Shown here one piece after another: positions 12,725 to 32,776 of a stretch of 64,000 nucleotides of DNA (positions are counted from its first letter, which is position 1; each line of letters opens with the position of its first letter). The position numbers and the translations under genes are program-made. The DNA lies in NCBI GenBank assembly GCA_913046365.1, contig CAJWRM010000004.1, positions 1 to 64,000 on the forward strand, written 5' to 3'. The stretch comes from an uncultured Flavobacteriales bacterium. GTDB taxonomy: Bacteria; Bacteroidota; Bacteroidia; Flavobacteriales_D; Crocinitomicaceae. The notes under the pieces are model-generated. The model saw nothing but the letters and a program-made list of their open reading frames with translations, was not told where the DNA came from and searched no databases.

Positions 12725-13801
12725 ATGAAAACCCTGTTCTTATACTGTATAATTTCGTTAATCCCGTTAGGAGCTTGGACGCAATCGGAATGGGGGTACT
12801 CATATCAGCTTAAATTAGGAACACTTGCTGCGCACAGGGGATCTATGGCTGATCTTCCACAGCAATTGGCTTGGGCAAGCGAATTTTCTTTTTTCAAGCA
12901 CTTGCATCAGCCAGATTCTTGGATTGAGGATTATAAAGATCCAACAGTTGGCGCTACACTATTTATTGGTTCTGTTGGTAATAATGATGTTTTAGGTCGA
13001 TTTGTGGCGTTATATGGATTCTCTGAGTTGCCGTTTGTCGCTTTAGAACATTTTGAGCTTTCTTGGAAGCTTGGTACCGGACTCGCTGTTACAAATAGAA
13101 AGTTTGACACTGACTTTAATCCAGAAAATATCGCAATAGGTTCTCACCTGAATATGATGATTGTAATGGCTTTAAAAGCCCAATATCGTCTCAACAAAAG
13201 CAGCTATTCACTAGGTCTAGATATTACTCATTTTAGTAACTCTGCATTCAAAGTACCGAATTTAGGTTTGAATGTACCTTATCTTTCTTTTGGCTACAGT
13301 AGGAAAATTGGTAATGTTAGAAACGCCACGATTGACAGAAAGGCTCCCTTTATTCGAAAAAAAATCTATTTTGGAGGTTCTGCAATAGCTTCCATGAAAG
13401 AGCTTATGCCAGAAGGGGGACCTAAATACGCGATTTATGCCGGAAACCTCTTTGCACGTTCTATCATCGGACCAAAGGCTGGTTTTGAAGTAGGACTAGA
13501 TGTTTTTTCTAACCAGGCTCATACTAATTTTGAGCCATTAGTTACCAAAACTCAATGGACTTTGCTTCAGCTTGGTTTCTATTCCGCTTATTTCGTTCCC
13601 ATGAATCATATTCATTTTGTTTTTGGAATGGGCGCATACATTCGCGATTGGTATAAGCCTAACGGTCCTATTTACCATCGTATTGGGGTGCGTTATCAGT
13701 GGTTTAATGGATTGTTTGGTCATATGGCTATCAAAAGCCACTGGGCAAAGGCGGATTATTTGGAATTGGGCATCGGTTTTGTATTTAAACGGACTAATTA
13801 A
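12725..13801 (+). CDS. PagL-like acyloxyacyl hydrolase / lipid A deacylase
   Basis: 358 residues with a signal peptide (cleavage near AWTQ) and alternating aromatic beta-strands typical of an outer-membrane barrel. The block ITHFSNSAFKVPNLGLN carries the His169 and Ser171 pair that matches the catalytic HxS of PagL lipid A 3-O-deacylases. The protein is longer than Pseudomonas PagL (about 170 residues); extended versions are common in Bacteroidota. It would remove an ester-linked acyl chain from lipid A in the outer membrane. The deacylase assignment rests on this motif and on the predicted barrel. Confidence 0.78.
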   Translation: MKTLFLYCIISLIPLGAWTQSEWGYSYQLKLGTLAAHRGSMADLPQQLAWASEFSFFKHLHQPDSWIEDYKDPTVGATLFIGSVGNNDVLGRFVALYGFSELPFVALEHFELSWKLGTGLAVTNRKFDTDFNPENIAIGSHLNMMIVMALKAQYRLNKSSYSLGLDITHFSNSAFKVPNLGLNVPYLSFGYSRKIGNVRNATIDRKAPFIRKKIYFGGSAIASMKELMPEGGPKYAIYAGNLFARSIIGPKAGFEVGLDVFSNQAHTNFEPLVTKTQWTLLQLGFYSAYFVPMNHIHFVFGMGAYIRDWYKPNGPIYHRIGVRYQWFNGLFGHMAIKSHWAKADYLELGIGFVFKRTN

Positions 13802-14035: not shown

Positions 14036-14797
14036 ATGAGAATATTTTCTTTTAATGTAAATGGTATTCGCGCTATTGTAGGTAAATCTTTCATTGCCGA
14101 TATGGAGCGGGAAGATGCAGATATTATTTGTCTTCAGGAAACGAAAGCTACTGTAGCCCAAGTAAAAACGGCAGTTGCTCCATTGAGCGATTATACCGTT
14201 TTTGCGAATGAAGCAGAAAAAAAAGGATATTCGGGAACTGCAATTCTTACTAAAGAAAAACCTATTTCAGCATCTTTTGGTATAGGTCTAGAAGAACATG
14301 ATAATGAAGGTAGAGTTGTTTGTTTGGAGTTCACCGATTTTTATTTAGTGAATGTTTATGTCCCGAATTCTGGGAATGCGCTTTTGAGGTTGCCGTATCG
14401 ACAGCAGTGGGATACTGATTTTTGTAACTACCTCAAAGGTCTAGAAAAGACTAAGAATGTAGTGGTTTGTGGAGATTTTAATGTTGCACATAAGTCCATT
14501 GATTTAGCTCGTCCCAAGGCGAACTATAATAAATCAGCTGGTCACATGCAAGAGGAAATAGATGGTATGGACCGTTATTTAAATGCTGGTTTTGTTGATA
14601 CCTTCCGTTATCTAAATTCTTCGAAAGATCATCAGTACTCTTGGTGGAGCTATAGGGCAGGAGCGAGGAAAAGAAATATCGGTTGGAGGATTGATTATTT
14701 TTTGATTTCTAACTTGCTTCTTGATGGATTAAAATCAGCAAAGATTCATCAAGACATCATGGGCTCTGACCATTGCCCTGTGTCTATTTCTTTTTGA
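14036..14797 (+). CDS. xth: Exodeoxyribonuclease III
   Basis: 253 residues of the exonuclease III/AP endonuclease family, cutting DNA at abasic sites in base-excision repair. The conserved blocks are in order: FNVNGIRAI, LQETKA (metal-binding Glu), GDFNVAHKSIDLA, WRIDYFLIS and the catalytic SDHCP near the C-terminus. Its last 14 bases overlap the end of the convergent tyrosine kinase gene, so the two 3' ends share sequence. Confidence 0.96.
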   Translation: MRIFSFNVNGIRAIVGKSFIADMEREDADIICLQETKATVAQVKTAVAPLSDYTVFANEAEKKGYSGTAILTKEKPISASFGIGLEEHDNEGRVVCLEFTDFYLVNVYVPNSGNALLRLPYRQQWDTDFCNYLKGLEKTKNVVVCGDFNVAHKSIDLARPKANYNKSAGHMQEEIDGMDRYLNAGFVDTFRYLNSSKDHQYSWWSYRAGARKRNIGWRIDYFLISNLLLDGLKSAKIHQDIMGSDHCPVSISF

Positions 14798-17165
14798 ACC
14801 AATTAAGTGGGTTTAATTTTTTAACCTTTGAATCGTTATCTACATAATAATCACCTGTGTAGCCATACCCATATCCGTAACCATATCCATAGCCATAACC
14901 TTTATTTCCATAAGTACCATTAAGTAGTATGGCCATATTTGGTAGTCTCTGGTCGTTTTTTAAATCTAGTGCAATATGGAGCATTTTTTTAGGTAGTTGA
15001 TGTGCTCGAACAACATAAACTACAGCATCGGCGTATTTTGCAATGAGTAGTGTATCACTAACTATGCCAACTGGAGCAGTATCTACAATGATATAATCGT
15101 ATTTTGATTTTAACTCCTGAAAAAGGACTTCTATCTTTGGAGACATTAATAACTCTGAAGGGTTTGGTGGGATGTCGCCTGAAGGAAGAACATCAATATT
15201 TGAATTTATTTCAGAGGTGTAAATGTATTTTTGAATGTCATCTCCAGCGTTAATAATATGATTTGTAATCCCTTTTGACCTAATGTTTCCTAAGTAGTCT
15301 TCTAGTTTCGGAGCACGCAAATCCATACCTAAAATCAATACTTTCTTTCCTGACAAAGCTAGTGAAAGGGAAAAGTTAATTGCTGTAAATGACTTACCTT
15401 CTTTTGCCACTGTTGAGGTAATGAATATCGTTTTACATTTCATCTCTTCATTTGTCATCATAAAGTCGATGTTCGTCCTGAGCGTCCTAAATGCCTCTGA
15501 TATTGCTGTTTTGCTGCCTTTGGATATTACTATATTGGAGTTTTTTTCTCCTAAGGGTATATTTCCTATGTATGGAAGGTTTAATTTGTCGGTATCCGTT
15601 TTACTGTATACTTTATCCTTGAAAAAGTCCAGAAAATAAACAATTACAATACCTAGCACGAATGATATTAAAAGTGCCAAACTGAAGGTAAACATTCTTT
15701 TCGGTGAAACAATTGCATTGTTGGAATAAGCTTCATCAATTATTTTTGCGTTACCCATTCCCACAGCAGATGAAATTAACGCCTCTTCTCTTTTCTCTAA
15801 AAGATATAAATAAAGCTTTTCTTTTATTTCTTGTTGTCTTTTGATAGATCTTAACTTTTTTTCAAAAGAAGGAATCGATTTTAGACTGGAATCAATTTTT
15901 TCTATTTCACCCTTTATAGACTCTACTATATCCTTATTATTCTCTAATAGATTTTCTATACTCAGTTTAATGTTGTTTTTTAATTCAATTATTTGATTTG
16001 TCAGCTCGACTACGTTGGGATTTTTGTCCGTTGATTTTCTTAATAATTCCAATCTTTTTAAGACTAATTTATTATGCTCTTTTATTGATTGTTCTATATA
16101 AGGGTCTGTAATACCCAAATTAACTGGTGCTAAATCCTCTATGCCTTTATTTTTTGTAATGTGGTCTTTTATATTTTGAGCAAGGACCAATTGCATGTTG
16201 GCATTAATATATTTATCATGAACTTCCCGGTTTTGTGCTAGCTTGTTCTGTGACTCAAATTTGTAATCAATTAAATGATTGGCAATTTTTATGGACTCGA
16301 GACTATCTTCAATTATTTTAAGTTCTGATGTTAATATTTTTATTCGATCATTTATGAAATTTGTCGTACCGATGGAGATTTGATTTTTATCTAGTTTCGC
16401 GTCTTTATTATAATTTATGATTAAGGTATTTAGAATATCCACTGCCTTTGGGCTTGAACTGTAGGTTAGCGATAGATCAATAATTGTCGAGTTTAATTTT
16501 ACGGACTCAATTTTCAAACGATTCCTATATTTATCGATTGTTATTTTCTGCGGTAGTAATTGAAACTTATAATTATTATTTAAAGACGAATTTTTGAAGA
16601 AAGCGGTCTTTTTAACCTTGTAAGAAACGTGTTCATTGAGTTTGTAGAACTTATTGTATTTTAATCTGTCTACTTCTTCATTGTCTTCATTTCTAACAGA
16701 TATTTCATTATTCAAAAACTCAAAGTATTTATTTACTGAATAATCTGCGAATATTGAGCTATCGGTATATTTAAATTCAATTTCAAAGGGTGATTGTTGA
16801 TATACCTCTGATTTTTTAAACCCCGTGTAATTGCCGATTCTGTAGTATTCGCATCGAAGATTTAAGTCATGAACAACTAGGTTCATGAGTCTTCTAGATT
16901 TTAAATTTGATATTTCGTTATCAATAAATAGTCCTTCATTGAATATGGTTAGGTCTTCAAATGCCGAAGTTTCAGATATCCCAGTTCCTCCTTTTTGATT
17001 ATTCTTAATCATTACTGTTATTGCAGCCTCATATTTCGGAATTGAATAGTGTAAATAGGAATAGGCAACAATTAAGGCAGTTATAATAAGAAACAAATAG
17101 AGCTTCCAATATGAAAAATGTTTAATTAAAATTGCCTTGTAATTAGACTTTAAAATTTCATCCAA
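14784..17165 (-). CDS. Wzc-like polysaccharide co-polymerase / tyrosine autokinase
   Basis: 793 residues. An N-terminal membrane helix (about 20-40), a long Wzz-type periplasmic coiled-coil region and a second helix near 490-510 precede a cytoplasmic BY-kinase domain. That domain has Walker A STVAKEGKS (about 584-592), Walker A' LILGMDLRAP and Walker B YIIVDTAP. The tail has a tyrosine cluster of about eight Gly-Tyr repeats (752-775), the autophosphorylation site. With Wza it controls chain length and export. The start is TTG (17165); the only other in-frame candidate before the upstream stop is CTG. It is the last gene of the 22-gene operon. Confidence 0.92.
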   Translation of the reverse strand: MDEILKSNYKAILIKHFSYWKLYLFLIITALIVAYSYLHYSIPKYEAAITVMIKNNQKGGTGISETSAFEDLTIFNEGLFIDNEISNLKSRRLMNLVVHDLNLRCEYYRIGNYTGFKKSEVYQQSPFEIEFKYTDSSIFADYSVNKYFEFLNNEISVRNEDNEEVDRLKYNKFYKLNEHVSYKVKKTAFFKNSSLNNNYKFQLLPQKITIDKYRNRLKIESVKLNSTIIDLSLTYSSSPKAVDILNTLIINYNKDAKLDKNQISIGTTNFINDRIKILTSELKIIEDSLESIKIANHLIDYKFESQNKLAQNREVHDKYINANMQLVLAQNIKDHITKNKGIEDLAPVNLGITDPYIEQSIKEHNKLVLKRLELLRKSTDKNPNVVELTNQIIELKNNIKLSIENLLENNKDIVESIKGEIEKIDSSLKSIPSFEKKLRSIKRQQEIKEKLYLYLLEKREEALISSAVGMGNAKIIDEAYSNNAIVSPKRMFTFSLALLISFVLGIVIVYFLDFFKDKVYSKTDTDKLNLPYIGNIPLGEKNSNIVISKGSKTAISEAFRTLRTNIDFMMTNEEMKCKTIFITSTVAKEGKSFTAINFSLSLALSGKKVLILGMDLRAPKLEDYLGNIRSKGITNHIINAGDDIQKYIYTSEINSNIDVLPSGDIPPNPSELLMSPKIEVLFQELKSKYDYIIVDTAPVGIVSDTLLIAKYADAVVYVVRAHQLPKKMLHIALDLKNDQRLPNMAILLNGTYGNKGYGYGYGYGYGYGYTGDYYVDNDSKVKKLNPLNWFKKK

Positions 17166-17195: not shown

Positions 17196-17966
17196 TTAAT
17201 TTATTATAAGATTAATTGCGGTAAGGATCAGAGAAGTAACTGATACAAAAGGAAGAACGAATTGGTTAAATGTTAAAACCGATTTTGATTTTTTTTGCGG
17301 TACATATATGATGTCGTTTTGTTTTAAAAAGAAAACTTCAGAGTTGAATATATTTTTACTCGTCATATCTAGTATATATTCCTTACGTTCTTGATTTATT
17401 TCCCTCACTAGATGAACTTTATTTCTATCGCTGAAGTTGGTAAGGTCACCCGCTAGCGATAATGCTTGAAATATGTTAATTCTCTCATTTGGTATATTAA
17501 AAGTACCGGCATTATTGACCTCGCCAACTACTGTGATTTTAAAATTTAATAGATTGACTTGGACATATGGATCTTTAACATATTCTTTTAATTTCTCCTG
17601 AATTATTTGCACTACTTCCTGCCTGTAGAGACTTTCAACTTTTATTTCTCCAATAAATGGTATGGAAATATTTCCCTTTTCATCTACTAAGAAACCACCT
17701 TTTGAGGGTACTCCTGAACTATATGTTACCAAGCCCTGTGAGTTTTCAAATTTCGTAGTAAATAATTCATTTGCCTCTTTATCTTTAGATATTAACAGAA
17801 TTTGGAGGTAATCATTTTTTTCGATTTTAATATCGAAATTTTCATGTAGGTTTACATTTTTCTCCATAAAACCATGGTTAAGCAGAAGAGCTTCTTTATG
17901 ATTGGTACATGACAAACCAAAGAGCACGAATAATAGATAAAACAAATTTTTGGCATTTACAATCAT
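17196..17966 (-). CDS. Wza-like polysaccharide export lipoprotein
   Basis: 256 residues with a lipoprotein signal peptide (LFGLSC, lipidated Cys20). The poly-export domain (YLQILLISKDKEANELF, GFLVDEKGNISIPFIGEIK) is followed by an SLBB domain (VVGEVNNAGTFNIPNERINI). A C-terminal hydrophobic helix (about 233-255) probably spans the outer membrane, as in Wza. It forms the outer-membrane channel for the polysaccharide and partners the kinase downstream. Its start overlaps the sugar transferase stop by four bases (ATGA). Confidence 0.93.
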   Translation of the reverse strand: MIVNAKNLFYLLFVLFGLSCTNHKEALLLNHGFMEKNVNLHENFDIKIEKNDYLQILLISKDKEANELFTTKFENSQGLVTYSSGVPSKGGFLVDEKGNISIPFIGEIKVESLYRQEVVQIIQEKLKEYVKDPYVQVNLLNFKITVVGEVNNAGTFNIPNERINIFQALSLAGDLTNFSDRNKVHLVREINQERKEYILDMTSKNIFNSEVFFLKQNDIIYVPQKKSKSVLTFNQFVLPFVSVTSLILTAINLIIN

Positions 17967-18958
17967 GAGCTCCTTACTTTATATATCAATAAGTTTTTCA
18001 GTGCGTTAAAAAATAACGTTAAATCTGTCGTATATGGTCGCTTAGATTTCAATTCAATATATTTTTTTTCCGCTTTTATGACTTCTTCTTTTGAGGATTT
18101 ATAGTTTAAAGCTACATATGGTGGAATACATCCAGGTTTATACTGAATTCTTTCATTTTGATATTCTTTCGACAAACCTTTAAAATACGACTCGCTTAGT
18201 GGGCGTAAACCTAATATTTTCATTTCTCCTCTGAGTACATTAATTATTTGGGGTAGCTCGTCTAGATAATATTTCCTGATCCACTTCCCCCATATTGTTA
18301 CGCGAAAATCATTGTTAAGTTTCCCTTTTTGACTATAACCACTATTTTTTATCATAAAATCCTGGAGATACTCAGAATATGGATGCATAGTTCTAATTTT
18401 GTAAACACCGATTACACGTCCATTCTTACCGAGTCTACTCATCTTAAATAGAGGTCCATAGCTGGGTTTAGAATGGTTTTTAGGTTGCGTTGATTTATTT
18501 AATTCCACATATAAAATTGAATTAATAGCCTTCATCTGCTTTATTTCAAATCCTGCGAAAGCCATTCTCCCTAAACCCTCTGCTTTTGAAAGTATTTTCA
18601 ATTTACCTCTAAAAAGTACAGTATATACCCATTTGAATAAATATAAACGAGGTAGTAGTCTTAATAGAATGAATTCGTTAATGACTATTAGCGTTGCTAG
18701 AAATTTAAAGGTGTTTTTTTCTATTCTATTTACTCTTGATTTTAATGTTTCAAAACATAATATTATACTTTGTTCTGCTGTAGAGTATCGGTGTAATTTT
18801 GTTAGTTTTTTTTGAAGCTGAATAACATCGTTGCACTGTGTATTAACGAAAATATAAGGTTCTGAGGTGTTTTTAGGAAATTCTTTATTTAGATGTATGA
18901 ATAGGATCTCGTTCTCAACAACTTCATACCCTGACAAGGCATGCACGATTTCTAACAT
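17963..18958 (-). CDS. Initiating undecaprenyl-phosphate sugar transferase
   Basis: 331 residues. The C-terminal half is a bacterial sugar-transferase (PglC/WbaP-like) domain with KIRTM, DELPQIINVLRGEM and GLRPLS. It transfers the first sugar-1-phosphate to undecaprenyl phosphate and so starts the repeat unit. The N-terminal 130 residues are unusual: instead of a multi-helix membrane domain there is a soluble-looking stretch and one hydrophobic segment (about 84-112). The usual KR-x-x-D motif before the catalytic core is not obvious. It sits upstream of and overlaps wza. Confidence 0.88.
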   Translation of the reverse strand: MLEIVHALSGYEVVENEILFIHLNKEFPKNTSEPYIFVNTQCNDVIQLQKKLTKLHRYSTAEQSIILCFETLKSRVNRIEKNTFKFLATLIVINEFILLRLLPRLYLFKWVYTVLFRGKLKILSKAEGLGRMAFAGFEIKQMKAINSILYVELNKSTQPKNHSKPSYGPLFKMSRLGKNGRVIGVYKIRTMHPYSEYLQDFMIKNSGYSQKGKLNNDFRVTIWGKWIRKYYLDELPQIINVLRGEMKILGLRPLSESYFKGLSKEYQNERIQYKPGCIPPYVALNYKSSKEEVIKAEKKYIELKSKRPYTTDLTLFFNALKNLLIYKVRSS

Positions 18959-18973
18959 AACAGTATTCAGTTG

Positions 18974-21007
18974 TTATTGATTCAACTTTACAAGTCTCGT
19001 TTGAGTTCTATGCCCATTCTTATTGGCGATATTGATCAAGTATACCCCATTATTAAGTCCGCGAATACAATCACTCCCTACAAAGTCCGCTATGCTACTT
19101 TCGATTATAACAATTTCCTTTCCGGATAAGTCAATTAATTGAATTGTATTTATTCCGGAGAATTCTTCAGAGACTCTTACGTTTAATGAGCTAGAAAATG
19201 GATTGGGAAAAAACGTTACGGCATCCGATAAATTCAATTCATCTAGACTTGCAGAGTTTTCTTCGGGAGTATCATCAATATTTTGGTTGATTGTTGAAGA
19301 ATTATCCAACGCCATTGCCGATGGTGTTCTCACGTAACAAGGAGTTCCATAATCACCAAGGTTTGTTTTCACCCGAACTCTGAATGTTGTATTAAAGGCA
19401 TTTGCCCACGATCCATCAATACCCGTCGAGGTCGATGCTCCAAACATATTAAGACGCATACCTCTTGCCATTGTTCCGTATGTGGCTCTGTCTCTTGTTA
19501 TCGTTCGTGTTTCAACATCGCCACCACTTCCATCCAGTTCCGTAACTTCATAAGTGTACGATGAAAATCCGTAGAGATTATATGCCAATAAAATCGTTGA
19601 AACATTAGCCATATTGTATGGTGATCCTGAACTACCGCACTGAGAGCTACCCGCTGCAGGAAATACTCCGTCCCTTATGTTTACTGTTGGACTTGAATTT
19701 ACTGAAACAACACGTTCAATTCCAAAAGGACTCCAAACACCTCCTGATTTAACCCTTACTGAGATTCTATAAGTCTGTCCATAGGGGTTGCCTCCCGGAA
19801 AATTAGATATAGGTCCAAAATCAGACATAAATAATGTTCTATCCGTCGGACTTCCTGTGGATTCATTTCCCCCCGTGGCCGTTAAGTAAATTTCCGATGA
19901 TCCACCTATTCTATATCTGAATTGATAATCTTCTACTGCACATGCCGCGGTTTCTGCAAGAATTGGGTCGTAATAGACATAATTAACTATTTTACCATCT
20001 TCTGCTGCTTCAAGTTTTGATCCACAAGGTGTAGTTATTTGACAAGTTGGACCATAATCGCCCCAAGCTCCGTCAATAAATGCAGCAACTCTCACATCTA
20101 AAGTCATTCCATAGCTTACCCAGGAAATAGAGGCTGGAGATCCACTATAAGTCGACCATGCTACGGGCATCAGAACTAAACAATGACTAGTAGACAAATC
20201 AGGTGTTACGACTGTTGTGTTTGTTCCGTCTGTAACTTCATATCGATATCCCGTTGCCGATGCAACAGTTTCTGCACATAATGAGGTATTCAAAAAGGGA
20301 ATAGATGTATTACAATAGTTATCGAGTTGGGTTAAAGGTGCACTTGGCGTTGTGATATCACAACTTGTACCATAATCACCATATGTTCCATTAACTTTAG
20401 CTTTTACTCGAACTGAGTAGGTTGTTGAATAATCAGCAAAGGAAACAGGAAAATCGTTCATTGAAAAAGCCCTAATTAACCCTGAACTTTTTTCAAATTC
20501 TTCAACAGCTAGTGTTGTTTGATTTGTAAGTTCGAATGTAAACGCTTCAGCTCCTGGAACACTGTTCGCATAAACAGGTGTATTCAACTGAGCTAATGAA
20601 GAATTACATTGGGCCGATTGAACTTGCGTGACTGGCAAAGGGCTTATGACAAAGCAATCCACACTACTAGGCACACTATAATTGGTTGTAACTCCGGTCC
20701 ACGTTCTGACTGTGACTTTATAGGTCGTCGCATAGTTAATACCCGCAAGCGGAAAGTCCGATAGGTTCGCAAAACGACCAGCGGTTCTTCCAAAGGTTAT
20801 TAAAGAATCAGTTTGAAAAGTTGTTTGATTTTCAACATCAAAAATATATCCATCAATTCCTCCTTTTTTAATGGCAAAAAAGTTCGAATTTAACGCAGGT
20901 AAGTTATAGTTGAAGCAGTAGGTGTCATTCAATCTCGTTACCGGAGACTGCGCAAATAGAGCATACGACGTGAAAAAAAAGAAAAATAAATAAAGTTTAC
21001 TCTTCAT
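18974..21007 (-). CDS. T9SS cargo with about five tandem repeats and type-A sorting domain
   Basis: 677 residues from ATG 21007; an upstream in-frame start would add 14 residues ahead of the signal peptide (MKSKLYLF...LFAQ). The mature part has about five divergent repeats of 100-110 residues, each ending in a block like TYSVRVKAKVNGTYGDYG followed by C-x-I-TTP, with paired cysteines. The last 80 residues are a type-A T9SS sorting domain (FFPNPFSSSLNVR, GLNNGVYLINI, TRLVKLNQ). It should be exported by the type IX system and possibly attached to the surface. Its place inside a polysaccharide operon is unusual. No enzyme domain is visible, so an adhesin or structural role is an inference. Confidence 0.85.
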   Translation of the reverse strand: MKSKLYLFFFFFTSYALFAQSPVTRLNDTYCFNYNLPALNSNFFAIKKGGIDGYIFDVENQTTFQTDSLITFGRTAGRFANLSDFPLAGINYATTYKVTVRTWTGVTTNYSVPSSVDCFVISPLPVTQVQSAQCNSSLAQLNTPVYANSVPGAEAFTFELTNQTTLAVEEFEKSSGLIRAFSMNDFPVSFADYSTTYSVRVKAKVNGTYGDYGTSCDITTPSAPLTQLDNYCNTSIPFLNTSLCAETVASATGYRYEVTDGTNTTVVTPDLSTSHCLVLMPVAWSTYSGSPASISWVSYGMTLDVRVAAFIDGAWGDYGPTCQITTPCGSKLEAAEDGKIVNYVYYDPILAETAACAVEDYQFRYRIGGSSEIYLTATGGNESTGSPTDRTLFMSDFGPISNFPGGNPYGQTYRISVRVKSGGVWSPFGIERVVSVNSSPTVNIRDGVFPAAGSSQCGSSGSPYNMANVSTILLAYNLYGFSSYTYEVTELDGSGGDVETRTITRDRATYGTMARGMRLNMFGASTSTGIDGSWANAFNTTFRVRVKTNLGDYGTPCYVRTPSAMALDNSSTINQNIDDTPEENSASLDELNLSDAVTFFPNPFSSSLNVRVSEEFSGINTIQLIDLSGKEIVIIESSIADFVGSDCIRGLNNGVYLINIANKNGHRTQTRLVKLNQ

Positions 21008-21092
21008 AATGAAACTAATTTTGTAATAAAGATAGGACATTCTATCCAATTATCCGTATTATCTAATGAGAAAAGGGCTTAGTAGATTTAAG

Positions 21093-21866
21093 TTAATGAT
21101 GGCTTGCAAACTTTGATTTATAGATAATTATCTTTTTAATCATGTTTTTAAGGTTTTGAAAAATCAATTCTTGCAACCACAAAATTGGATTATTCGTCCA
21201 CCTTTGAGGATGAAAATTAATCATTATTTGATTTGGTAAATTTCCATTAGTTGCAGCGCGAATAATATCATTAGTATGTCTGATATTAATATCATAAGGT
21301 GTCATAACTTTATCCCTGATGCTAATTTTTTTGTTATACCAAGAACGTCCCGTGTCAGTGAGATACATTACTTGATTAAAATCTATATCAAAATATGGTT
21401 CGCCTATTATATCAAAATCCAAGTAATTATACTTTTTCCATAGATCTTTGCTGTCATGCTTTGACATTGGACTGCCGTGCATGCAAATGGTCTCAATTGG
21501 AGATATTTCTCTGAACTTAAGTAAATCTGTCTCGAATTTTTGAATTGCAGCAGCAAGCATCCCTTTTTTTAATGCCAAACACTCATAATGGTATCCAATT
21601 TCATGATTTAGGTTATTAATCTTTCTCATTATACTAGGCTTGAAACTTTCTTTAACAGATCGAAAATAATAAACACCTTTAATATTTCTCTTTGATTGAA
21701 TTTCCGCAAAGATCAATGAGTTTTGTGGTTTTAAATCCACATCATGACGAAGTATAATTGTTTTTTCTTTAGGTGACTTGATGAATTCAGCAAAGGTTTG
21801 AAATGTATAACCTGCTTGTATTAATGCGTCTATTAATTCTTTATATTTCTTTATCGTAAAGTCCAT
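21093..21866 (-). CDS. NodB-like polysaccharide deacetylase-fold protein
   Basis: 257 residues with polysaccharide-deacetylase-like landmarks: IILRHDVDLKP (the Asp/His metal motif), HEIGYHYE (second motif) and ICMHGSPMSKHD. Proteins of this type in O-antigen and capsule loci are thought to act on N-acetyl groups or related amides of nucleotide-linked or polymerised sugars. I see no signal peptide, so it probably acts in the cytoplasm on a precursor. The 86-bp gap to the T9SS gene is one of the larger gaps in the operon. The substrate is unknown. Confidence 0.7.
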   Translation of the reverse strand: MDFTIKKYKELIDALIQAGYTFQTFAEFIKSPKEKTIILRHDVDLKPQNSLIFAEIQSKRNIKGVYYFRSVKESFKPSIMRKINNLNHEIGYHYECLALKKGMLAAAIQKFETDLLKFREISPIETICMHGSPMSKHDSKDLWKKYNYLDFDIIGEPYFDIDFNQVMYLTDTGRSWYNKKISIRDKVMTPYDINIRHTNDIIRAATNGNLPNQIMINFHPQRWTNNPILWLQELIFQNLKNMIKKIIIYKSKFASHH

Positions 21867-21914
21867 TTACTTTATAATTCAGTCCAGAATATTATTAAAA
21901 TCATTTCAATAATC

Positions 21915-23000
21915 CTATTGAAATGTGTATTGAAACTGGGGTTGTTCAGAATGTATTTTTTTACTTTCTGGATAGCTTTTAATATACCAAACAAAAAAGT
22001 CACAAACATTTATTTTATCCTGCAGTAATGTTTTTAATTTTTCATGTTGACGGATTTTTAAATCTTCCATTTCAAGCATTTCTTTTACAACCTTGTACAA
22101 TTTTTCTTCATCCATTATGGCTATACTTTTGGTCAATCCATATTTCTCTTCTAGTTCGTTTAACACACCAATTTCATTGGTAAAGTCATTAAATCTTATT
22201 CCAGGTGTTCCAAGTAGCGCAGATTCTACGGCCATAGACTGACTGTCTCCAATGTAAATCTTGGCATTACTTAGGACTGTATGTATGTCATTAGGATTTG
22301 TTTTTAGCAGATGTTTATGAAATTTATTGCTAACTGCTTTTTCTGAGGTAATATAAACCGCACCATGTGGCTGCAGTATAGTAATGAGCTTTTCTAATAT
22401 GTCTTCGGATATTCCCTTTTTATTTGTGTCATGATACGCACTTAAATTCGTTGTTCTTATGATGAAGTAATCTTTTGGCAAACTATCAATTACATTTTGG
22501 TTCGGTTGAAATTGTGATGGATGTAGATATGTAAGTTTATGAAATCCATCATAGGCAGTTTTTTTGAAATCCCATTTCCCAGTATCGCAGGAAATAGGTG
22601 ATATTATTTCCGTGACAAAAGGGTAGGCTATTTTAGCGAACTGCGGAATAATATGGGTATCATCTTCACTAAAGACAAAAGACGGGATTCTAAACAACTT
22701 TCCGAGATGTGGTAAGGTGGGTTCAGAACCAATGAGTATATCAGGTCGAAATCTTCTAATATTTTTGCTTATTCCAATGTATTTGTACAAAAAGCTTATT
22801 AAAATACCGAGGGTTGATTTACCTCTTTGCTTTTTATAAACATTTTTGAACTTTATCCCCTCATTCAGACATAGTTCCTCTAGTATATCTTTGGATTTAA
22901 TGAGTACAAGGGTTTCATTACCATTTTCTTCAAGTTTTTTGATTATGTTTTTGAAAAGATGAAAATGAGCTGGATGCCCTAAAAAGAATAGACATTTCAT
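21915..23000 (-). CDS. DUF354-like glycosyltransferase-fold protein
   Basis: 361 residues with a GT-B-like layout. The N-terminus CLFFLGHPAHFHLFKNII matches the start of DUF354 proteins (related to UDP-GlcNAc 2-epimerase and MurG-like folds), and the C-terminal half has YIGDSQSMAVESALLGTPGIRF. DUF354 members occur in archaeal and bacterial surface-glycan loci. Its activity is probably glycosyl transfer or epimerisation, but it is not proven for the family. The start overlaps the stop of the upstream acyltransferase by four bases. Confidence 0.75.
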   Translation of the reverse strand: MKCLFFLGHPAHFHLFKNIIKKLEENGNETLVLIKSKDILEELCLNEGIKFKNVYKKQRGKSTLGILISFLYKYIGISKNIRRFRPDILIGSEPTLPHLGKLFRIPSFVFSEDDTHIIPQFAKIAYPFVTEIISPISCDTGKWDFKKTAYDGFHKLTYLHPSQFQPNQNVIDSLPKDYFIIRTTNLSAYHDTNKKGISEDILEKLITILQPHGAVYITSEKAVSNKFHKHLLKTNPNDIHTVLSNAKIYIGDSQSMAVESALLGTPGIRFNDFTNEIGVLNELEEKYGLTKSIAIMDEEKLYKVVKEMLEMEDLKIRQHEKLKTLLQDKINVCDFFVWYIKSYPESKKIHSEQPQFQYTFQ

Positions 23001-23530
23001 TGTTCAGTCCGAGGGATTTTCTTTAATATTTTCGCAGGTGTACCGCCTGCCACAGTATATGCAGGGATATCATTCATAACAACAGAGTTTGTGGCGATGA
23101 TAGAATTTTCCCCTATTGTGACACCCGGCAATATTACTACATTGAGTGCAATCCATGCTCCTCTCTTTATAGTGACTGGTTTTACGATGTGCGATTCTGG
23201 ACCGAGAATTTCTCTCAAAGGTAATGTTGGATTGCTGTGCGTCAAAATATTGACGCCACCTGCAAGTGAAACATATTCTTCAATAGTAATTAAATCTGGA
23301 CGGACTCTGTCAAGTATATTTCCTCCTCCAAGAAATACATTTTTTCCGATTTTAACTCCTCTAAGTCTTTCTAATCTACATCTATTTTTCGCACCTATTG
23401 GAAGCCTAGTCATTGCAATACTCTGAATAAATTTTCCGAAAAAAGACTTAAATAGTTGCCTGATGCTTTTTGACTCTAAACTTGCGCTTCCGAGCTGGCT
23501 TTGTGCCCATTTGAGGATTGGGTTTTTCAT
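22997..23530 (-). CDS. Hexapeptide-repeat acyltransferase
   Basis: 177 residues. The C-terminal 110 residues are a left-handed beta-helix with hexapeptide repeats (VKIGKNVFLGGG, WIALNVVILPGVTIGENSIIA) and the closing AGGTPAKILKK common to O-acetyltransferases of the maltose/serine transferase group. Residues GVNILTHSN fit the active-site His region. It probably acetylates a sugar of the repeat unit. The G/A/T-rich N-terminal part is poorly conserved. Confidence 0.82.
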   Translation of the reverse strand: MKNPILKWAQSQLGSASLESKSIRQLFKSFFGKFIQSIAMTRLPIGAKNRCRLERLRGVKIGKNVFLGGGNILDRVRPDLITIEEYVSLAGGVNILTHSNPTLPLREILGPESHIVKPVTIKRGAWIALNVVILPGVTIGENSIIATNSVVMNDIPAYTVAGGTPAKILKKIPRTEQ

Positions 23531-23540: not shown

Positions 23541-23963
23541 TTAGTCTGAGTAATTTATATTACTGGGGGGAATAACAATAGCTTCCCCATCGATGACAAT
23601 ATTATTATCTTGGTTCATGCATAGCGTTTTCAGATTCATTCTATTGACATTTGAACCACCTAAAACTTCAATTAATATTGTTATTGTATCGTTTATGAAA
23701 ACAGGAGATTTGAAGTTTAAACTTTGAGATATGTAAATGGTTCCATGACCTGGGAATTCATTGCCTAATACGGCAGATATAAAGCTTCCAATGAGTAAAC
23801 CGTGAGCAATTTTATTTTTAAATTTTGACGCTTTGGCATAATTCTCATTTAAATGAACAGGGTTATTGTCTCCCGTACATGATGCGAAATCTTGAACCAT
23901 TTTTTCAGTAACTACTACTGACTTTTTATATGTAAAGCCCGATGTTATATTTTTTTCTATCAT
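23541..23963 (-). CDS. MaoC-like (R)-enoyl-CoA hydratase
   Basis: 140 residues with the hydratase-2 signature: FASCTGDNNPVHLNENYAKA followed by AHGLLIGSFISAVLG, containing the catalytic Asp and His, and GHGTIYISQSLNFKSPV. PhaJ-type members hydrate trans-2-enoyl-CoA to (R)-3-hydroxyacyl-CoA. Its place between two sugar-modification genes suggests supply of a hydroxyacyl donor, for example a 3-hydroxybutyryl group, for decorating an amino sugar; that link is inferred. Coding-strand C6 near the 3' end (23565-23570) is noted. Confidence 0.85.
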   Translation of the reverse strand: MIEKNITSGFTYKKSVVVTEKMVQDFASCTGDNNPVHLNENYAKASKFKNKIAHGLLIGSFISAVLGNEFPGHGTIYISQSLNFKSPVFINDTITILIEVLGGSNVNRMNLKTLCMNQDNNIVIDGEAIVIPPSNINYSD

Positions 23964-24012: not shown

Positions 24013-24957
24013 CTAAACCTTTGATTTTTCTTTCCATAATTTTTGATACAGATTAATTATTTTTCTCGCCACATCAGTGCTTTGTAAAGATAACTGAATA
24101 AGTCTTTGCCTACCTTCATTGCTGTCTTTTTTTACAATTAACGATTGGTTAATTGCCGAGCTTATTATTCCCGGATCAAATGGACAAACATGGTTGTACT
24201 TTTCTTTGCCAAATAGATAATTAACATCTCCGACATTTGTAGATACAATATTGGTATTACACGCCATTGCTTCTTTAATTGTGTTTGGTGATCCTTCCCA
24301 ATGGCTGGTTGAAAGAAACAAATCGCAAGCATTATAATACAAGTTTAATTCTTCCTGATTTAAGTTTTTTATTTCGACTATTTTAATTTTTTGATCACAA
24401 AGGTTTCTTGCATTGTAAGCCAATTTATAGTTTTTGATTGGGTTGGATTTACTCCCATTAAAAAGAATGATTTTTTCGTTCAAATCCCAATTTAAAATTA
24501 AACGAGCTTTCTTCTTATTAATTGGGTAAAATGTATTAAAATCAACTCCATTTGGCACCACCTCTATCTTGTTAATTTTTAATAAGTTTTTCATTTCATC
24601 CGACTTAACAATTATATGTTTCCAATGGAATATGTTCGATATAATTCTTAGAATTAATCTAGAAAAAGAACTTTGAATAACATCTGTACCTAAAAGCGAC
24701 ACGATAAGCGGTTTTTTTCGAGCAAAACTTGCAACATATCCACTGAAACTGTAGTGGGCGTGGTAAATGTCATAATCTTTTTTCTTTGTGAAACTATTCA
24801 ATTCAAATATGCTTCTCAAATATCCAAAAACCCCACTTTTTTTAATCAAAAAAAAATCAACTGTTAAGCCTTCATTTTGTAATGATAGTGCCTGTGATTT
24901 CACAAATGGAGAAATATTTGTTTTTGTTTTTTGCCTACATATAAATAAAACTTTCAC
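24013..24957 (-). CDS. Glycosyltransferase family 4-like
   Basis: 314 residues with GT-B fold. The N-terminal domain contains YDIYHAHYSFSGYVAS; the C-terminal nucleotide-sugar domain has PNGVDFNTFYP and the GT4 motif EGSPNTIKEAMAC (E-x7-E) followed by STNVGDVNYLF. It transfers a sugar in repeat-unit assembly at the cytoplasmic face. The donor cannot be read from sequence. Its ATG overlaps the ATP-grasp stop (ATGA). Confidence 0.88.
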   Translation of the reverse strand: MKVLFICRQKTKTNISPFVKSQALSLQNEGLTVDFFLIKKSGVFGYLRSIFELNSFTKKKDYDIYHAHYSFSGYVASFARKKPLIVSLLGTDVIQSSFSRLILRIISNIFHWKHIIVKSDEMKNLLKINKIEVVPNGVDFNTFYPINKKKARLILNWDLNEKIILFNGSKSNPIKNYKLAYNARNLCDQKIKIVEIKNLNQEELNLYYNACDLFLSTSHWEGSPNTIKEAMACNTNIVSTNVGDVNYLFGKEKYNHVCPFDPGIISSAINQSLIVKKDSNEGRQRLIQLSLQSTDVARKIINLYQKLWKEKSKV

Positions 24958-25979
24958 AGCTTACTCTTAATTTGCCTGACAATACTTTTAGTATAAAATT
25001 CTTCGAGAATTATATTATTCGCATCATGTCTTTCCCATTTATTACTTTTCGAAATTTTGAAATAAAATGGAGCATTTTCTATTGTTTTTGTCCCGAAATA
25101 AAGGGCTTGAAATTCAAATGTAATCGGCTTGTTATTATGGAGGGCAATGTCCAAAGATAACTGAGGCAGGTCCATATGTTTTCTTAAAAAAATGGCGTGG
25201 TTAAGTATTGAATCTGGAATATCTTTTGGGTACTCAAATAATCCACTTCCGCTAGCTCGAAAGTCATTTTTTCGATTGTTTCGTTTTAGCACAAAAATTT
25301 TATCAAAATAGACTAAGACTTTATAATCATAACTCATGTTGGGAACAAAATTTTGCACGATTGACTTTCCCCTTCTTACTGCTTCTTTTTTATAATTAGA
25401 ATTATGCCTAATTCTTCTAATAAGTTGATGTATTAGTAGTCGAAAAGAATCTTTTTTGTTGATTTTACGGAAACTTTCTAGTAATTCTATCCTGTTTTCA
25501 GCTTTTAATACTGTTTTTGATAATGCTCCGGTAGCGCCCTTAATAATTACGGGATACTTTATTTTTGAGTTCTCTAATTCCTCTTCTGTTGCTGCATAAT
25601 TTGTTTGAAAAACTAAGTTGTCAGAGAGCTGTAATGATGTCCTCAATAGTTCCATATATACCTTGTTGTTATGAGCTCGAAGGTACTTATATGAAGGCAT
25701 GCAGAAATGTCCGATATCTTCTAAAAATAAAATTATATCCTCTATAAAGCTTTTGTATTTGTCATTATGATCTTCAGAAGATGTATAAATTATGTAGCTG
25801 GGTTCTTTAGCTTTGAGTCGCACAATACATTCTGCAATGTTGAGTACCTCAACTTGAAAATTTTCTTGTTCAAAATAAGTTTTAATCTTATCTATATCCA
25901 TACCGGAACGATAAGTTTTCGATTTTTGTTTTGATCCAAATCGATTGAGATAATCAGTTAGTATTATTATACTATTCAT
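24954..25979 (-). CDS. ATP-grasp ligase in the polysaccharide operon
   Basis: 341 residues with a RimK/D-Ala-ligase-like ATP-grasp core. [16 protein letters not shown] contains the ATP-binding Lys and the flexible loop. [17 protein letters not shown] supplies the adenine pocket, and [17 protein letters not shown] carries acidic metal ligands near the end. Such enzymes join a carboxylate to an amine through an acyl-phosphate. In this operon it could amidate a uronic acid or attach an amino acid to a sugar, but the substrates are unknown. It overlaps its upstream acetyltransferase by 8 bases and its downstream glycosyltransferase by 4. Confidence 0.8.
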
Positions 25980-26568
25980 CGATCCTTTTAATTAATTTTG
26001 CTGGATTACCTCCTGCAATGTGTTCCGACGGAACAGATTTATTTACAACACTTCCTGCTGCTATTATTGAATTTGAACCGATTGAAACACCCGGTAAAAT
26101 AATTGAATTGGCTCCAATCCAGACATTATCTCCAATTTTTATTTCTTTTGCGGTGCCATTATTTGTCTTTCTTTCATCCGGCAATGAATTATGTCCATTC
26201 GAATCAAATATTTGACAATTTGCAGCAATAAGACAATCACGTCCAATATCTATTCTTTTGAAAGCATGAATACAGCTACCATGAATACGCGTGTTTTTAC
26301 CAATATTAATTTGAGCACCTTCCACGTCGCACATTATCTTCACCTTTGAATGCATATTGATATGATATGAATAATTAGACGAGTTGAATAAAACACCGTC
26401 GGATATCACAAGTAAAGCCTTTTTATGAACTTTAATTAATGGCCACTTATTAATTCGAAAGCCAGCATTAAGTTTTACATTTTTACAAAATGCATATGAC
26501 AAGCGAAAAATAATAGTATTTATTATATTTCTGATCTTCATCATGACGAAAGCTATCTTTTTGATCAT
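25972..26568 (-). CDS. Hexapeptide-repeat O-acetyltransferase
   Basis: 198 residues. A beta-helix region runs from about residue 75 ([20 protein letters not shown]) to [19 protein letters not shown] and the closing [21 protein letters not shown] supplies a likely catalytic His. It resembles galactoside/maltose acetyltransferase-type enzymes in capsule loci and probably acetylates a repeat-unit sugar. The start lies two bases after the polymerase stop. Confidence 0.85.
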
Positions 26569-26569: not shown

Positions 26570-27793
26570 TTATGTTTGTTTATGATTCAATGTCGTTTTA
26601 CAAGCGTATTCATAAAGGATACGCAATATAGATCCCATTAGCGCAACCCTTATTGAATTAAAAAGAATAGCATTGATACCTCCTGAAAGACTAATCAGAT
26701 AACCCATTATTAATAAATTTAAAAACAAAACTGTCATAATATCAAAAAGCCGTTTGTCTTCAAAAGAATGATTTGCTAAAATCTTCATTTTTCTGTAGAA
26801 CACATATAACGGAATCGGCCAACAAATAAATAACAATAATCCAATAACACCCGAACCATGAAGAATCATATTGTAGTCGTTATGTATCATTCTTGGACCA
26901 AATCTACCATTGGCATAATTACCTGGTGAATTAAAAACTTCCTTACCAAACAAAAATAGTTTTAAATCATTAGAAAATATAGTTTCATTAAAGGCATGAA
27001 ATGTTTCTTGATATCTACCTTCCTCCTCAATATTAACAGTGGTTAACCTTCTTTCTCTTACCTTATATTGCACGCTTAAAATATTTTCATATAAAGGGAA
27101 AGCTACCAACATAATTATGACACTTGCAATAAGACCGAATGCAATTGATATACGATTTTTACTATAAATAATTTGAATCATTAATCCGGTTAGAATAGCG
27201 AGAATTGAAATTCTTTTCAGCTGCACAAAAACTAGAACAAAAATTATAATTGCTAGTATAAATATGACACGTTTGTTTTTCGGCCTAAAGTGAATAATAA
27301 GAGGCGTTGCAACTAGAATATAAGCCATTGAGTTCAGACCTTCAGTAAATAGGTTACCAACTTGGAATATTTCACGCGAGTAGGATTTGCCTGTAATACC
27401 AAATACTGTTGAAATTATAATGTTTATAATATATAAAACACCAATAAGTGCTATTGAGTTTAATAACTTCTTGAACCGGCTTATATTATTTATTAGAAAA
27501 AATGAAATAGGTAATACTAACATCCAAATGGCAGCAGAAGCTATGTTGGATAAACTGTACAGAAATTTTGACGAAAATATGGATAGAAATGATATGTAGA
27601 GTAAAAAAGCTAAAAGAATATTGAAGAGGTTAGTTGAAATATAATGTCTTATAAAGTAATAAATGGTGGTGAGTAGTATTAGTGTACCAATGAGTTGCGT
27701 TGCAATTGAACCCTTAGGTATAATAACACCGACACTTGCAATGTAGATGAAGATAAATGGGAAAAATCGATATAGAAAATGCGTTGATTTCAC
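26570..27793 (-). CDS. Wzy-like O-antigen/polysaccharide polymerase
   Basis: 407 residues, almost wholly hydrophobic, with about 10-12 membrane helices and a larger external loop near residues 225-300 ([19 protein letters not shown]...[12 protein letters not shown]). The topology and the M-I-H-N-D-Y block are typical of the O-antigen ligase/polymerase superfamily. In a Wzx/Wzy locus it should join repeat units on the periplasmic side. Ligase (WaaL-like) activity cannot be excluded from sequence. Confidence 0.85.
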
Positions 27794-27794: not shown

Positions 27795-29045
27795 TTATTG
27801 ATTAATTATTTTTTCTAGTTTTTTAAATTGATTTTCTTTAGAAATTTCTGATGTTTTATTGTCCGCTAATTTTATTTTCATTTCAGTTTCGTAGGTCTTT
27901 TTCATGTAGTTTACTATTTCGCTCTTTTTTTGAAGCATTTTTCCATTATATGGAGAAATTAATTCTGCCAACTCCTGGTCAAAACCGATACTTAAAATAG
28001 GTCTTTGTGCTGAGATATACTCAAATATTTTTCCACTCAGGATTCCTTTTTGGCTAGGATCTGTCCATGCAAGGTGAAGGAGTAAAGAAGCACTTTTTTG
28101 TATTTTTTTTACTTCTACATTAGGCATTTTTTTTAGGAAAACACAATAGTTTTCAAGCTCATAATGTTTTATTTTATTTAAAATTAAATTGTTTTCTGGG
28201 GTTCCAACAAATATTATTTTTATAGGACGTGCAGCATTTTTATGGGTTGATATAAATTCTTTTGTTGATTTGAAAAATAAATCTAAATCATTGAATTTTT
28301 TTGAATAATACCCCGTGTAAACAATAGAAAATCCGTTATTTATTTCAGATAAATTTCTATACGAATCAAAATCGCATCCGTTGTAAAGTATATGAACGTT
28401 GCGCCTTAGTCTTTTTTGCATAATTGCTTGTTGACCTTTTGATACGGTTAGAATAAGATCAGACTCATTTACAATTCTTTTTTCTATTTCAAAATGTAAA
28501 TTTTTTAATAATTTTTTTATCGAGTTGTTCGATGCTGAAAATGACCACAAGTCTCTATACTCGGCAATCCAATATATATTTTTGTGCTTGGATTTTAATT
28601 TTTGGCCAATCAAATGTGGGCTGGGGGGGGAGAACGTTGTATAAATATGTGATATTTCTTGTTTCGATATTAATTCATTAGCACATTTTATTGCGTTTTT
28701 TTTCCATGATCTAAATCTCATATCAGGTAACCATATAGGAAGCTGCGGAATGATATAACCCATTGATTTTACTATCACTTTTTTGAGTAGTTTGTTTTTA
28801 ATCCTCTGTATCTTAAAGTACGGATCTTTCCATGGTATATCTATGATATTAAATCGATCAAGATCAAACTCATCTGATATATTTTGTCCTTCTTGAGTAC
28901 ATGTTATAACACTTACTCGCCAGCCATTTTGATGAAATAATTTAGCGTAATTATAGAGCCTTAAACTTGCTACCGATAACCTTGGTGGAAATGTGACAGT
29001 TATAAATAGGATAGACTTTTTATCGGTCATTTCTTGATTTATCAT
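27795..29045 (-). CDS. Glycosyltransferase (GT4-like) with internal C8 tract
   Basis: 416 residues of GT-B type. The N-terminus LFITVTFPPRLSVASLRLYNYAKLF is followed by WIAEYRDLWS and ILYNGCDFDSY, with the C-terminal LLLHLAWTDPSQKGILSGKIFEY in place of the usual E-x7-E block. It is related to the GT4 enzymes that share an RDLW motif. An in-frame Met6 is an alternative start. A run of eight C (coding strand) at residues 139-142 (codons TCC-CCC-CCC) keeps the frame open as sequenced. The stop of the flippase gene is one base upstream. Confidence 0.85.
   Translation of the reverse strand: MINQEMTDKKSILFITVTFPPRLSVASLRLYNYAKLFHQNGWRVSVITCTQEGQNISDEFDLDRFNIIDIPWKDPYFKIQRIKNKLLKKVIVKSMGYIIPQLPIWLPDMRFRSWKKNAIKCANELISKQEISHIYTTFSPPSPHLIGQKLKSKHKNIYWIAEYRDLWSFSASNNSIKKLLKNLHFEIEKRIVNESDLILTVSKGQQAIMQKRLRRNVHILYNGCDFDSYRNLSEINNGFSIVYTGYYSKKFNDLDLFFKSTKEFISTHKNAARPIKIIFVGTPENNLILNKIKHYELENYCVFLKKMPNVEVKKIQKSASLLLHLAWTDPSQKGILSGKIFEYISAQRPILSIGFDQELAELISPYNGKMLQKKSEIVNYMKKTYETEMKIKLADNKTSEISKENQFKKLEKIINQ
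28623..28630 (-). repeat. Homopolymeric C8 tract inside a glycosyltransferase gene
   Basis: Eight consecutive G on the plus strand (C on the coding strand) lie within the N-terminal third of the glycosyltransferase. G/C runs of this length are rare in such AT-rich DNA; I otherwise see runs of at most six. Slippage by one base would truncate the protein. Confidence 0.8.
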
Positions 29046-29046: not shown

Positions 29047-30519
29047 TTACAGTTTTCTTCTTAAAAGCGCTCTTATTTTACTTGTAAATCCCATTTTTTT
29101 CATTTGCCAATATGAAAAAACAAATGAGAGCAATGTTATAATGATGCAAAATCCTATGTTCTTTAAAATTACAATTGAATAGAATGCAAATAAGAGTATG
29201 ATTGCACCGATAAAAATTACGGTTTTTGATTCTTTGTTAAAATCAATTTTATACCAGTATCTACATAAAAAATATGTTTGTAAACTATAATAAAAGTAAC
29301 CAGTTGTAAATCCCATACCTAGACCATGAAGGCCATATTTGTTATAAAGTAGGACCGTGATAATTGTTGTTATAATAATAGAGGTCGTTTCGTGTAGAGC
29401 GAATCTTTTGTTGTCTCCTTTACTAAGAATAATAAAGGATTGTGTCCAACTTATAAGTTTGAAAAACATTCCTATGACAGACCATGCAATCAATAACTCA
29501 GCACCCTTGAATTTTGAATTAAACAAAAGAACAATGATCCATTGATTGAATAATAAAAAGGCACTAACTAACGGTATAATAAGCATCATTCCGAATATTA
29601 GTTGTTTGTTGAATAAATCCGTGTATAATTTTTTATCATGAATTTTCGTGCTTAAATCTGGCAAATAATCCGTACTCATGATGGTGAAAATTATTCCCAA
29701 ATAGGAGTTGACGATAATGAAACTTGAGTGATATAGGCCAACCTCTTCAATACCTCCAATATCCTCAACATAAATCCTGAGAAAAAAAACCTTTGATAAC
29801 GTCAATACAGATGTAATACTTAATACTATACCCATTGCTAGCATAGGTCTAGAGGCGTTAAAAGTCTCTCTTGCCCCAATAGGCATCCAATCTATCTTAA
29901 TTTTATTTGCGAAATAAGCACTTCGTAAATAGGCTGCGAGCGAACTTAAAATAATCGCCGGAACGATAGCATTTATTCCCCATATGTAGTAAAGAGTAAC
30001 CGATATAATTAAACCAATTATAGCTCCTGTAGCGTTAGAATTTGCTAAGCTCTTATGTTTTCGAAGACCCCTTAATAAAATTGTATTTCCTTGTGTCAAT
30101 TGATTAAGTATGATTGCAATAGAAAGCCACATGATTGCATATGTGAAATCAGGGTTATTGAATATTATTTCGCTTAAAAAAGGAGACAACAATAGACAAA
30201 TTGTACCACCCATTAGGCCTGTAAACCAAACAATTTTACGAACTATAGTTAATGTCTTGATTACATTTTGACTTTCCTCATTATTATAATTTTCTGCAAT
30301 CGTTTTAGTTGCAGAGGTATTTAATCCTAAATTTGAAAATGTTCCTATGAGATTGACAGCAGCAGTATATAGAGAAAATATTCCATAACCTTGGGTTCCA
30401 AGAAAGTAAGCTACAAATTTGGTTTTGATGATTTTGGTAATTACGATTACAACCTGAGAGCTTCCGAATAAAACTGAAGTTCTTGCGATATCTTTATATG
30501 AAGTCTTCTTGTTTAACAT
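29047..30519 (-). CDS. Wzx-like lipid-linked repeat-unit flippase
   Basis: 490 residues with 12-14 predicted helices, of the polysaccharide-transport/MOP superfamily. The N-terminal VVIVITKIIKTKFVAYFLGTQGYGIFSLYTA is the typical RFVA-x-x-LG-x-x-x-YG-like start. It should flip undecaprenyl-linked units to the periplasm for the polymerase. It overlaps nothing; 52 bp separate it from the upstream glycosyltransferase. Confidence 0.9.
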   Translation of the reverse strand: MLNKKTSYKDIARTSVLFGSSQVVIVITKIIKTKFVAYFLGTQGYGIFSLYTAAVNLIGTFSNLGLNTSATKTIAENYNNEESQNVIKTLTIVRKIVWFTGLMGGTICLLLSPFLSEIIFNNPDFTYAIMWLSIAIILNQLTQGNTILLRGLRKHKSLANSNATGAIIGLIISVTLYYIWGINAIVPAIILSSLAAYLRSAYFANKIKIDWMPIGARETFNASRPMLAMGIVLSITSVLTLSKVFFLRIYVEDIGGIEEVGLYHSSFIIVNSYLGIIFTIMSTDYLPDLSTKIHDKKLYTDLFNKQLIFGMMLIIPLVSAFLLFNQWIIVLLFNSKFKGAELLIAWSVIGMFFKLISWTQSFIILSKGDNKRFALHETTSIIITTIITVLLYNKYGLHGLGMGFTTGYFYYSLQTYFLCRYWYKIDFNKESKTVIFIGAIILLFAFYSIVILKNIGFCIIITLLSFVFSYWQMKKMGFTSKIRALLRRKL

Positions 30520-31600: not shown

Positions 31601-31660
31601 AATACCATGGAAAACACGTTGCTTTTTGATGTTTTTAATTTTTCAAATGCCTTTTAGTTT

Positions 31661-32764: not shown

Positions 32765-32776
32765 AAAAACGTTTTG

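Follow-up and report, generated by a model that had tools for sequence, protein, structure and literature searches.

Why should the gene for a T9SS cargo protein lie inside a polysaccharide operon, and does its product serve the polysaccharide that is made there? We examined this question in a locus of a marine bacterium, using the window (the whole 64,000-nucleotide stretch of DNA that was analysed) and the genomes of its relatives. The cargo is a 677-aa repeat protein, here called REP; the names SugTr and Deac are used for its two neighbours, a sugar transferase and a 257-aa deacetylase-like protein. The genes of the locus are as follows.

14784–17165, minus strand: Wzc-type co-polymerase/kinase (GNVR and AAA_31; weak Wzz)
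17196–17966, minus strand: Wza-type export protein (Poly_export, SLBB)
17963–18958, minus strand: SugTr, initiating sugar transferase (PF02397), starting 15 bp after REP
18974–21007, minus strand: REP, T9SS cargo with a signal-like N-terminus, five repeats of predicted FnIII-like fold (about residues 21–564) and a type A sorting domain (600–674)
21093–21866, minus strand: Deac, 257 aa, upstream neighbour of REP, no Pfam or NCBIfam match; taken by us to be deacetylase-like from resemblance
21915–23000, minus strand: DUF354 protein (Pfam)
22997–23530, minus strand: hexapeptide acyltransferase (Pfam)
23541–23963, minus strand: MaoC-like dehydratase (Pfam)
24013–24957, minus strand: glycosyltransferase (Pfam)
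24954–25979, minus strand: ATP-grasp-like protein (weak match, below cut-off)
25972–26568, minus strand: hexapeptide acyltransferase
26570–27793, minus strand: candidate Wzy polymerase, 407 aa, no family match; assigned by position and by hydrophobicity judged by eye
27795–29045, minus strand: glycosyltransferase
29047–30519, minus strand: Wzx-type flippase (Polysacc_synt)
30572–34970, minus strand: 342-aa protein of unknown kind, DegT aminotransferase, two hexapeptide acyltransferases and two FdtA-like proteins
34998–35975, minus strand: nucleotide-sugar epimerase (best match TviC, below its cut-off)
36044–36583, minus strand: NusG-family protein that opens the co-directional run; candidate antiterminator

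The co-directional run thus leads from the NusG-family gene through sugar-precursor genes, Wzx, the candidate Wzy, glycosyltransferases and acyltransferases to SugTr, Wza and Wzc, where it ends at 14784. REP is separated from its co-oriented neighbours by 85 bp after Deac and 15 bp before SugTr, and no terminator-like site was found on either strand within 17900–22100. UpxY antiterminators belong to Bacteroides capsule operons; the NusG-family first gene (36044–36583) recalls them and could let one transcript span the whole run, REP included. Two further features of the region were noted: the MaoC-like dehydratase (23541–23963, minus strand) is retained within the polysaccharide operon in both sister metagenome-assembled genomes (L007 and L008), and a PagL-like lipid A deacylase is encoded on the plus strand at 12725–13801, near the operon end.

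The REP frame (18974–21007, minus strand) is open over 677 residues from an ATG, and the mechanical reading frame could reach upstream to a TTG at 21049. The sorting domain was matched by Pfam PF18962 (residues 600–669, 33.6 bits against a cut-off of 27) and by the NCBIfam 'type A' model TIGR04183 (residues 600–674, 37.7 bits against a cut-off of 23). Between it and the N-terminus lie five repeats, at about residues 21–123, 124–222, 223–328, 329–439 and 440–564; their boundaries were placed by eye from recurring 'YG..C.ITTP' endings, and the repeats are 99–125 residues long. The frame and the Pfam and NCBIfam matches bear out the initial annotation, which had described a 677-residue protein with about five repeats and a type A sorting domain, co-oriented within a polysaccharide operon. 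Its signal peptide stands as a reading by eye of a hydrophobic, signal-peptide-like N-terminus. When the relatives described below were included, the sorting domain was borne by all 16 linked REP copies whose C-terminus lay on the contig, two further copies being cut off, and one relative (G012) had six repeats.

In REP of the window and in three of its relatives from the genus, the repeats matched no Pfam family at E ≤ 0.01, the FnIII model included; REP of the window also matched no PDB chain by sequence at E ≤ 1. Its genome gave no further copy of the repeats at E ≤ 1e-3, and the other five matches of whole REP to its own genome were confined to the sorting-domain end. Structure prediction of the repeats had been proposed with the initial annotation as a check. 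Repeat 2, modelled on an alignment of 15 repeats from three sister proteins, was predicted to be a beta sandwich of FnIII type (pLDDT 93.1) with five strands of at least 3 residues plus shorter ones. When this model was compared by VIA-align, the best match was an FnIII domain (Z 10.3, rmsd 2.2 over 89 residues), and almost all of the best 50 were FnIII domains (Z 9.2–10.3, rmsd 2.0–2.7 over 85–90 residues). Foldseek gave nothing at E ≤ 0.001, the chains that it listed being mostly of the same kind. RbmA, a matrix protein considered below, was not among the best 50 of either program, which excludes nothing. Repeat 2 is therefore FnIII-like by predicted fold, outside Pfam membership. A full-length model of REP (pLDDT 46) was too poor and was set aside.

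The place of one gene in one genome proves little. PF18962 matched 85 proteins of the window genome at E ≤ 0.001, and the chance that one of 85 such genes falls in a 19-gene operon is about 52% if 2,200 genes are assumed; because placement in the operon would thus be expected about half the time, relatives were compared. In both sister genomes (L007 and L008) REP occupied the same position, with 79% identity. We then surveyed 86 genomes of the genus, many of them incomplete. This form of the SugTr subfamily was found in 22 of the 86 (E ≤ 1e-54, by reading of the matches), and all 22 loci were examined; 20 were readable, and two at contig edges (G033 and G095) were left out. REP adjoined SugTr, or lay one gene away (G063 and G070), in 13 of the 20. 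It was on the SugTr strand in seven of these (G000, which is the window genome, G092, G019, G100, G090, G009 and G012) and on the opposite strand in six (G060, G088, G029, G014, G063 and G070). Deac adjoined the other side of REP in eight of the 13 and lay two genes further in G100, and the contig ended before Deac in the remaining four (G012, G090, G063 and G070). In G088 the SugTr gene (L054:9206–10229) is broken by a stop codon, and its REP is open over 700 aa.

REP was absent from the SugTr site in seven of the 20 readable loci (G026, G017, G032, G003, G093, G074 and G005), and only G005 among these had no REP anywhere in its genome. G017, G026 and G032 carry REP at another site, next to housekeeping genes in G017, and in five more genomes (G093, G067, G033, G095 and G030) REP adjoined Deac away from SugTr. 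A methyltransferase was seen in or beside the REP place in some genomes (L046:10872–11558 by Pfam match; L047:8453–9139 and L044:11177–11959 alike by eye), which suggests that genes may insert quite generally where the biosynthesis part of the locus meets the export part.

A profile of the repeats with the sorting domain removed (12 rows, all of them linked copies, so that it may favour such copies) detected 29 REP genes in 23 of the 86 genomes. Within two genes of SugTr or Deac, on either strand, lay 18 of the 29 genes, in 18 of the 23 genomes, as against about 0.1 expected from random placement with an assumed gene number and no phylogenetic correction. Three of the 29, whose neighbourhoods were not fetched (G095:C95, G014:C77 and G067:C241), were counted as unlinked. 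G074 carries two tandem REP genes, of 767 and 737 aa (L060:2945–7551), on a 7.6-kb contig that ends where Deac would be expected from the layout of G093. With the window REP as a single query, eight of the 12 genus genomes with repeat matches were linked.

We also found that the two genes co-occur across the genus. Both SugTr and REP were present in 21 of the 86 genomes, SugTr alone in one (G005), REP alone in two (G030, a weak match in a genome 68% complete, and G067, in 650 contigs) and neither in 62 (Fisher p 9e-17, with no kinship correction). Kinship was taken into account with an alaS tree built by FastTree from 75 genomes; the other 11 had no alaS of at least 450 aa (G030, G067, G088 and eight more). 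On this tree SugTr and REP each changed seven times. Among six independent pairs differing in SugTr on supported branches, REP changed with SugTr in a mean of 5.6 and against it in none (p 0.031), and when pairs were chosen by REP, five of six went the same way (p 0.0625). The clade of G017, G026 and G032 keeps both genes although REP lies elsewhere there. We regard the co-occurrence as supportive and not decisive, because many of the genomes have parts missing, and linked genes would then drop out together.

The sequences of near sisters gave a further view. The window genome and G060 shared 87% identity in alaS and 86% in xth, the gene flanking wzc, whereas within the locus identity was 38% for SugTr, 36% for Wza, 51% for Wzc, 55% for Deac, 24% for DUF354 and 22% for REP. 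In G060, which is listed with 5% contamination and carries a second alaS fragment, alaS and the locus are both on contig C13. A similar picture was obtained for G100 and G070, with 89% identity in alaS, 38% in SugTr, 41% in Wza and 24% in REP, both loci being on short contigs. By these comparisons the locus appears to have been replaced as a block between near sisters, REP included. Across the relatives, REP identity showed rank correlations of 0.78 with DUF354, 0.73 with Wza, 0.55 with SugTr, 0.47 with Wzc, 0.32 with alaS, 0.23 with xth and 0.18 with Deac. Partial correlation over 188 non-independent pairs gave 0.75 for REP and SugTr given alaS, and 0.27 for REP and alaS given SugTr. Since the divergence of REP tracks that of SugTr over that of alaS, and identity is low between near sisters, REP acts like one component of an exchangeable cassette of coat genes. 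In G093 one contig carries SugTr, Wza and Wzc and another carries Deac, with REP beside Deac, which hints that REP goes with the sugar-making genes of the locus; against such a tie, REP identity does not track Deac identity. Chance placement as a full explanation was rejected on the strength of the recurrent place, the tree and the exchange between sisters. Collectively, the usual joint travel and joint change of REP and the coat locus in these relatives suggest that they function together.

Beyond this genus, in which the tie is strong, it was seldom seen. In a sample of 399 genomes from the order, 66 had REP repeats (E ≤ 1e-15), 46 of them outside the genus and often in proteins of 900–3500 residues. 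Twenty of the 46 genomes supplied 27 loci for inspection; several of these end at contig edges near REP, among them L081, L086, L090, L091, L093 and L095. REP adjoined SugTr or Wzc in three of the 27: in G143, with the order SugTr-Wza-Wzc-REP-Deac, in G361 and in G330, which belongs to another family. The other 24 were not beside the locus; they include G109, where REP and a different sugar transferase/Wza cluster are four genes apart. SugTr was matched in 58 of the 399 genomes (E ≤ 1e-45), 38 of them outside the genus, and 35 further SugTr loci there showed no REP, several being on short contigs, among them L100, L103, L104 and L112. At these cut-offs, 15 of the 46 outside REP genomes had SugTr and 31 had no SugTr match, and 23 of the 38 outside SugTr genomes had no REP match. 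Recurrent linkage to polysaccharide loci, which the initial annotation had named as support for its proposal, was thus found within the genus (18 of the 23 REP genomes) and in three of the 27 loci outside it; the scattering of homologues that it had named as counter-evidence was seen in part, in the 24 unlinked loci and in the REP genes of G017, G026 and G032. Other T9SS cargo does occur near SugTr loci outside the genus, adjoining SugTr in G395 and two or more genes off in G249, G290, G201 and G181. By a rough estimate from 85 such genes in about 2,200, these cases come to about the number expected by chance; they were therefore not counted as support, and the idea that T9SS cargo is linked to such loci in general was rejected.

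What, then, would REP do for the coat? With about even odds, we propose that it serves the polysaccharide of its own locus as a dedicated matrix or tether protein, delivered by the T9SS and working in the manner of RbmA. The window genome encodes a PorU sortase (NF033707, 1227.6 bits), and PorX is encoded within the window. REP would be exported by Sec and then by the T9SS, and would probably be held at the cell surface, perhaps through attachment by PorU. Its FnIII-like string may bind the locus's own polysaccharide, and would either keep the coat on the cell or cross-link it, as RbmA does with Vibrio VPS. The basis in hand for this proposal is the sorting domain, the modelled FnIII-like fold of one repeat, the recurrent place, the co-occurrence in the genus and the joint replacement. 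The idea of the initial annotation that REP is a surface partner of the polysaccharide made by the same operon gains from the linkage, the tree and the joint exchange within the genus, and loses from the scatter outside it and on the matter of A-LPS anchoring, taken up below.

FnIII domains serve many roles, and strings of them are common parts of adhesins. This counts for another possible, though distinctly less probable, account: that REP serves as an all-purpose adhesin or antigen at the surface, rides in an exchangeable coat cassette, has no contact with the coat, and is swapped together with it since both face phages and grazers. The strand flips and the REP copies found elsewhere fit such an independent adhesin, and other genera have REP-like proteins off the locus or in genomes that lack it. 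Within the genus, however, REP is found almost only with the SugTr locus, even where the two are apart (G003, G017, G026 and G032), and hitch-hiking needs no such tie. We consider it unlikely that REP simply landed at a module boundary and has been carried there by shared ancestry and synteny, with no functional tie. One of 85 sorting-domain proteins would hit such an operon about half the time, and the place between the biosynthesis and export parts takes other genes, the methyltransferase in G017 and, by likeness, in G032; yet REP stays with the locus down to 22–25% identity, through strand inversion and block replacement, and three linked cases lie outside the genus.

A third account would carry the tether further, with PorU linking REP covalently to the locus polysaccharide in an A-LPS-like conjugate that has a dedicated glycan; we judge it improbable. 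REP bears a type A sorting domain and the genome has PorU, as in Porphyromonas gingivalis, where PorU attaches type A cargo to a glycolipid (PMC13086638, PMC7468200) and a linking sugar connects the cargo with an O-polysaccharide made by Wzy (PMC13086638). The linking-sugar pathway of that species is described as including a putative deacetylase, VimE (PMC7468200), which also speaks for this account. Against it, the locus has Wza and Wzc and no ligase is named among its genes, three of whose products are without a family match, and the 84 other sorting-domain proteins presumably share the sortase, which gives no ground for a dedicated pairing. The initial annotation had offered anchoring, by analogy with A-LPS, as one option, and as stated this is unsupported: the locus has Wza/Wzc export genes, whereas the cargo-receiving glycan of P. 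gingivalis is a Wzy polymer joined to the lipid A-core by WaaL (PMC13086638). That system is alike in sorting-domain type and in PorU and differs in having one glycan system for its cargo, the accessible text mentioning no cargo gene paired with glycan genes. With PorU in the genome, attachment of REP to some glycolipid is plausible, and nothing points to the locus polysaccharide as the acceptor.

Several known systems resemble parts of this arrangement. The rbmA gene belongs to the vps region of Vibrio cholerae, and its product is not known to carry a T9SS sorting domain. REP is likewise encoded in an exopolysaccharide locus, and both are FnIII-domain proteins, REP by prediction. RbmA is secreted, carries two FnIII domains and is reported to bind the Vibrio exopolysaccharide VPS directly (PMC5605196); of the known proteins it offers the closest functional model for REP. 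It differs from REP in having two such domains instead of five (six in G012), and no sequence relation between the two was detected in the PDB search at E ≤ 1. Sorted surface proteins are also associated with exopolysaccharide loci in the PEP-CTERM/exosortase system, which is reported to occur mostly in species with exopolysaccharide gene clusters (PMC10936215, PMC7468200). There the sorting signal and the sortase are different, and it is the sorting system that goes with the exopolysaccharide genes, in contrast to one cargo and one locus for REP. The Wzi protein of group 1 capsules is a surface protein from a capsule locus that keeps the capsule on the cell; it is an outer-membrane beta-barrel lectin, whereas REP is predicted to be an extracellular FnIII-like string. 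RemA of Flavobacterium is a T9SS lectin linked to polysaccharide secretion. Among the open-access papers listed on T9SS or gliding, none was seen to describe a T9SS cargo whose gene lies in a Wza/Wzc locus and is passed on with it, in agreement with the initial annotation, which knew of no system pairing such a cargo with its own polysaccharide operon. Matrix proteins encoded next to polysaccharide loci are a known kind, as are sorted proteins accompanying exopolysaccharide genes; a T9SS cargo in the role would be the new element.

Bacteroidota spend much of their secretion capacity on T9SS cargo, often of unknown role, as the 85 sorting-domain matches of the window genome illustrate. The tie of REP to its locus by place, co-occurrence and joint replacement gives a class of FnIII-repeat cargo a testable role, in which REP and its locus would be a Bacteroidota counterpart of the RbmA/VPS pairing. 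If so, a coat switch would replace both the sugar and a protein scaffold, a point relevant to recognition by phages and grazers. A bolder and rather doubtful extension is a strain-matched lock-and-key fit between the cargo and its coat polysaccharide, the FnIII string of each cassette being suited to its own sugar; a switch of coat type would then bring a new surface scaffold along, and PorU might even set REP on a glycolipid while the repeats hold the exported polymer. A possible second kind of cargo was observed in G395, where a different sorting-domain protein of 244 aa (L105:10729–11463), which had no NCBIfam match at E ≤ 1e-10, adjoins SugTr where REP would be.
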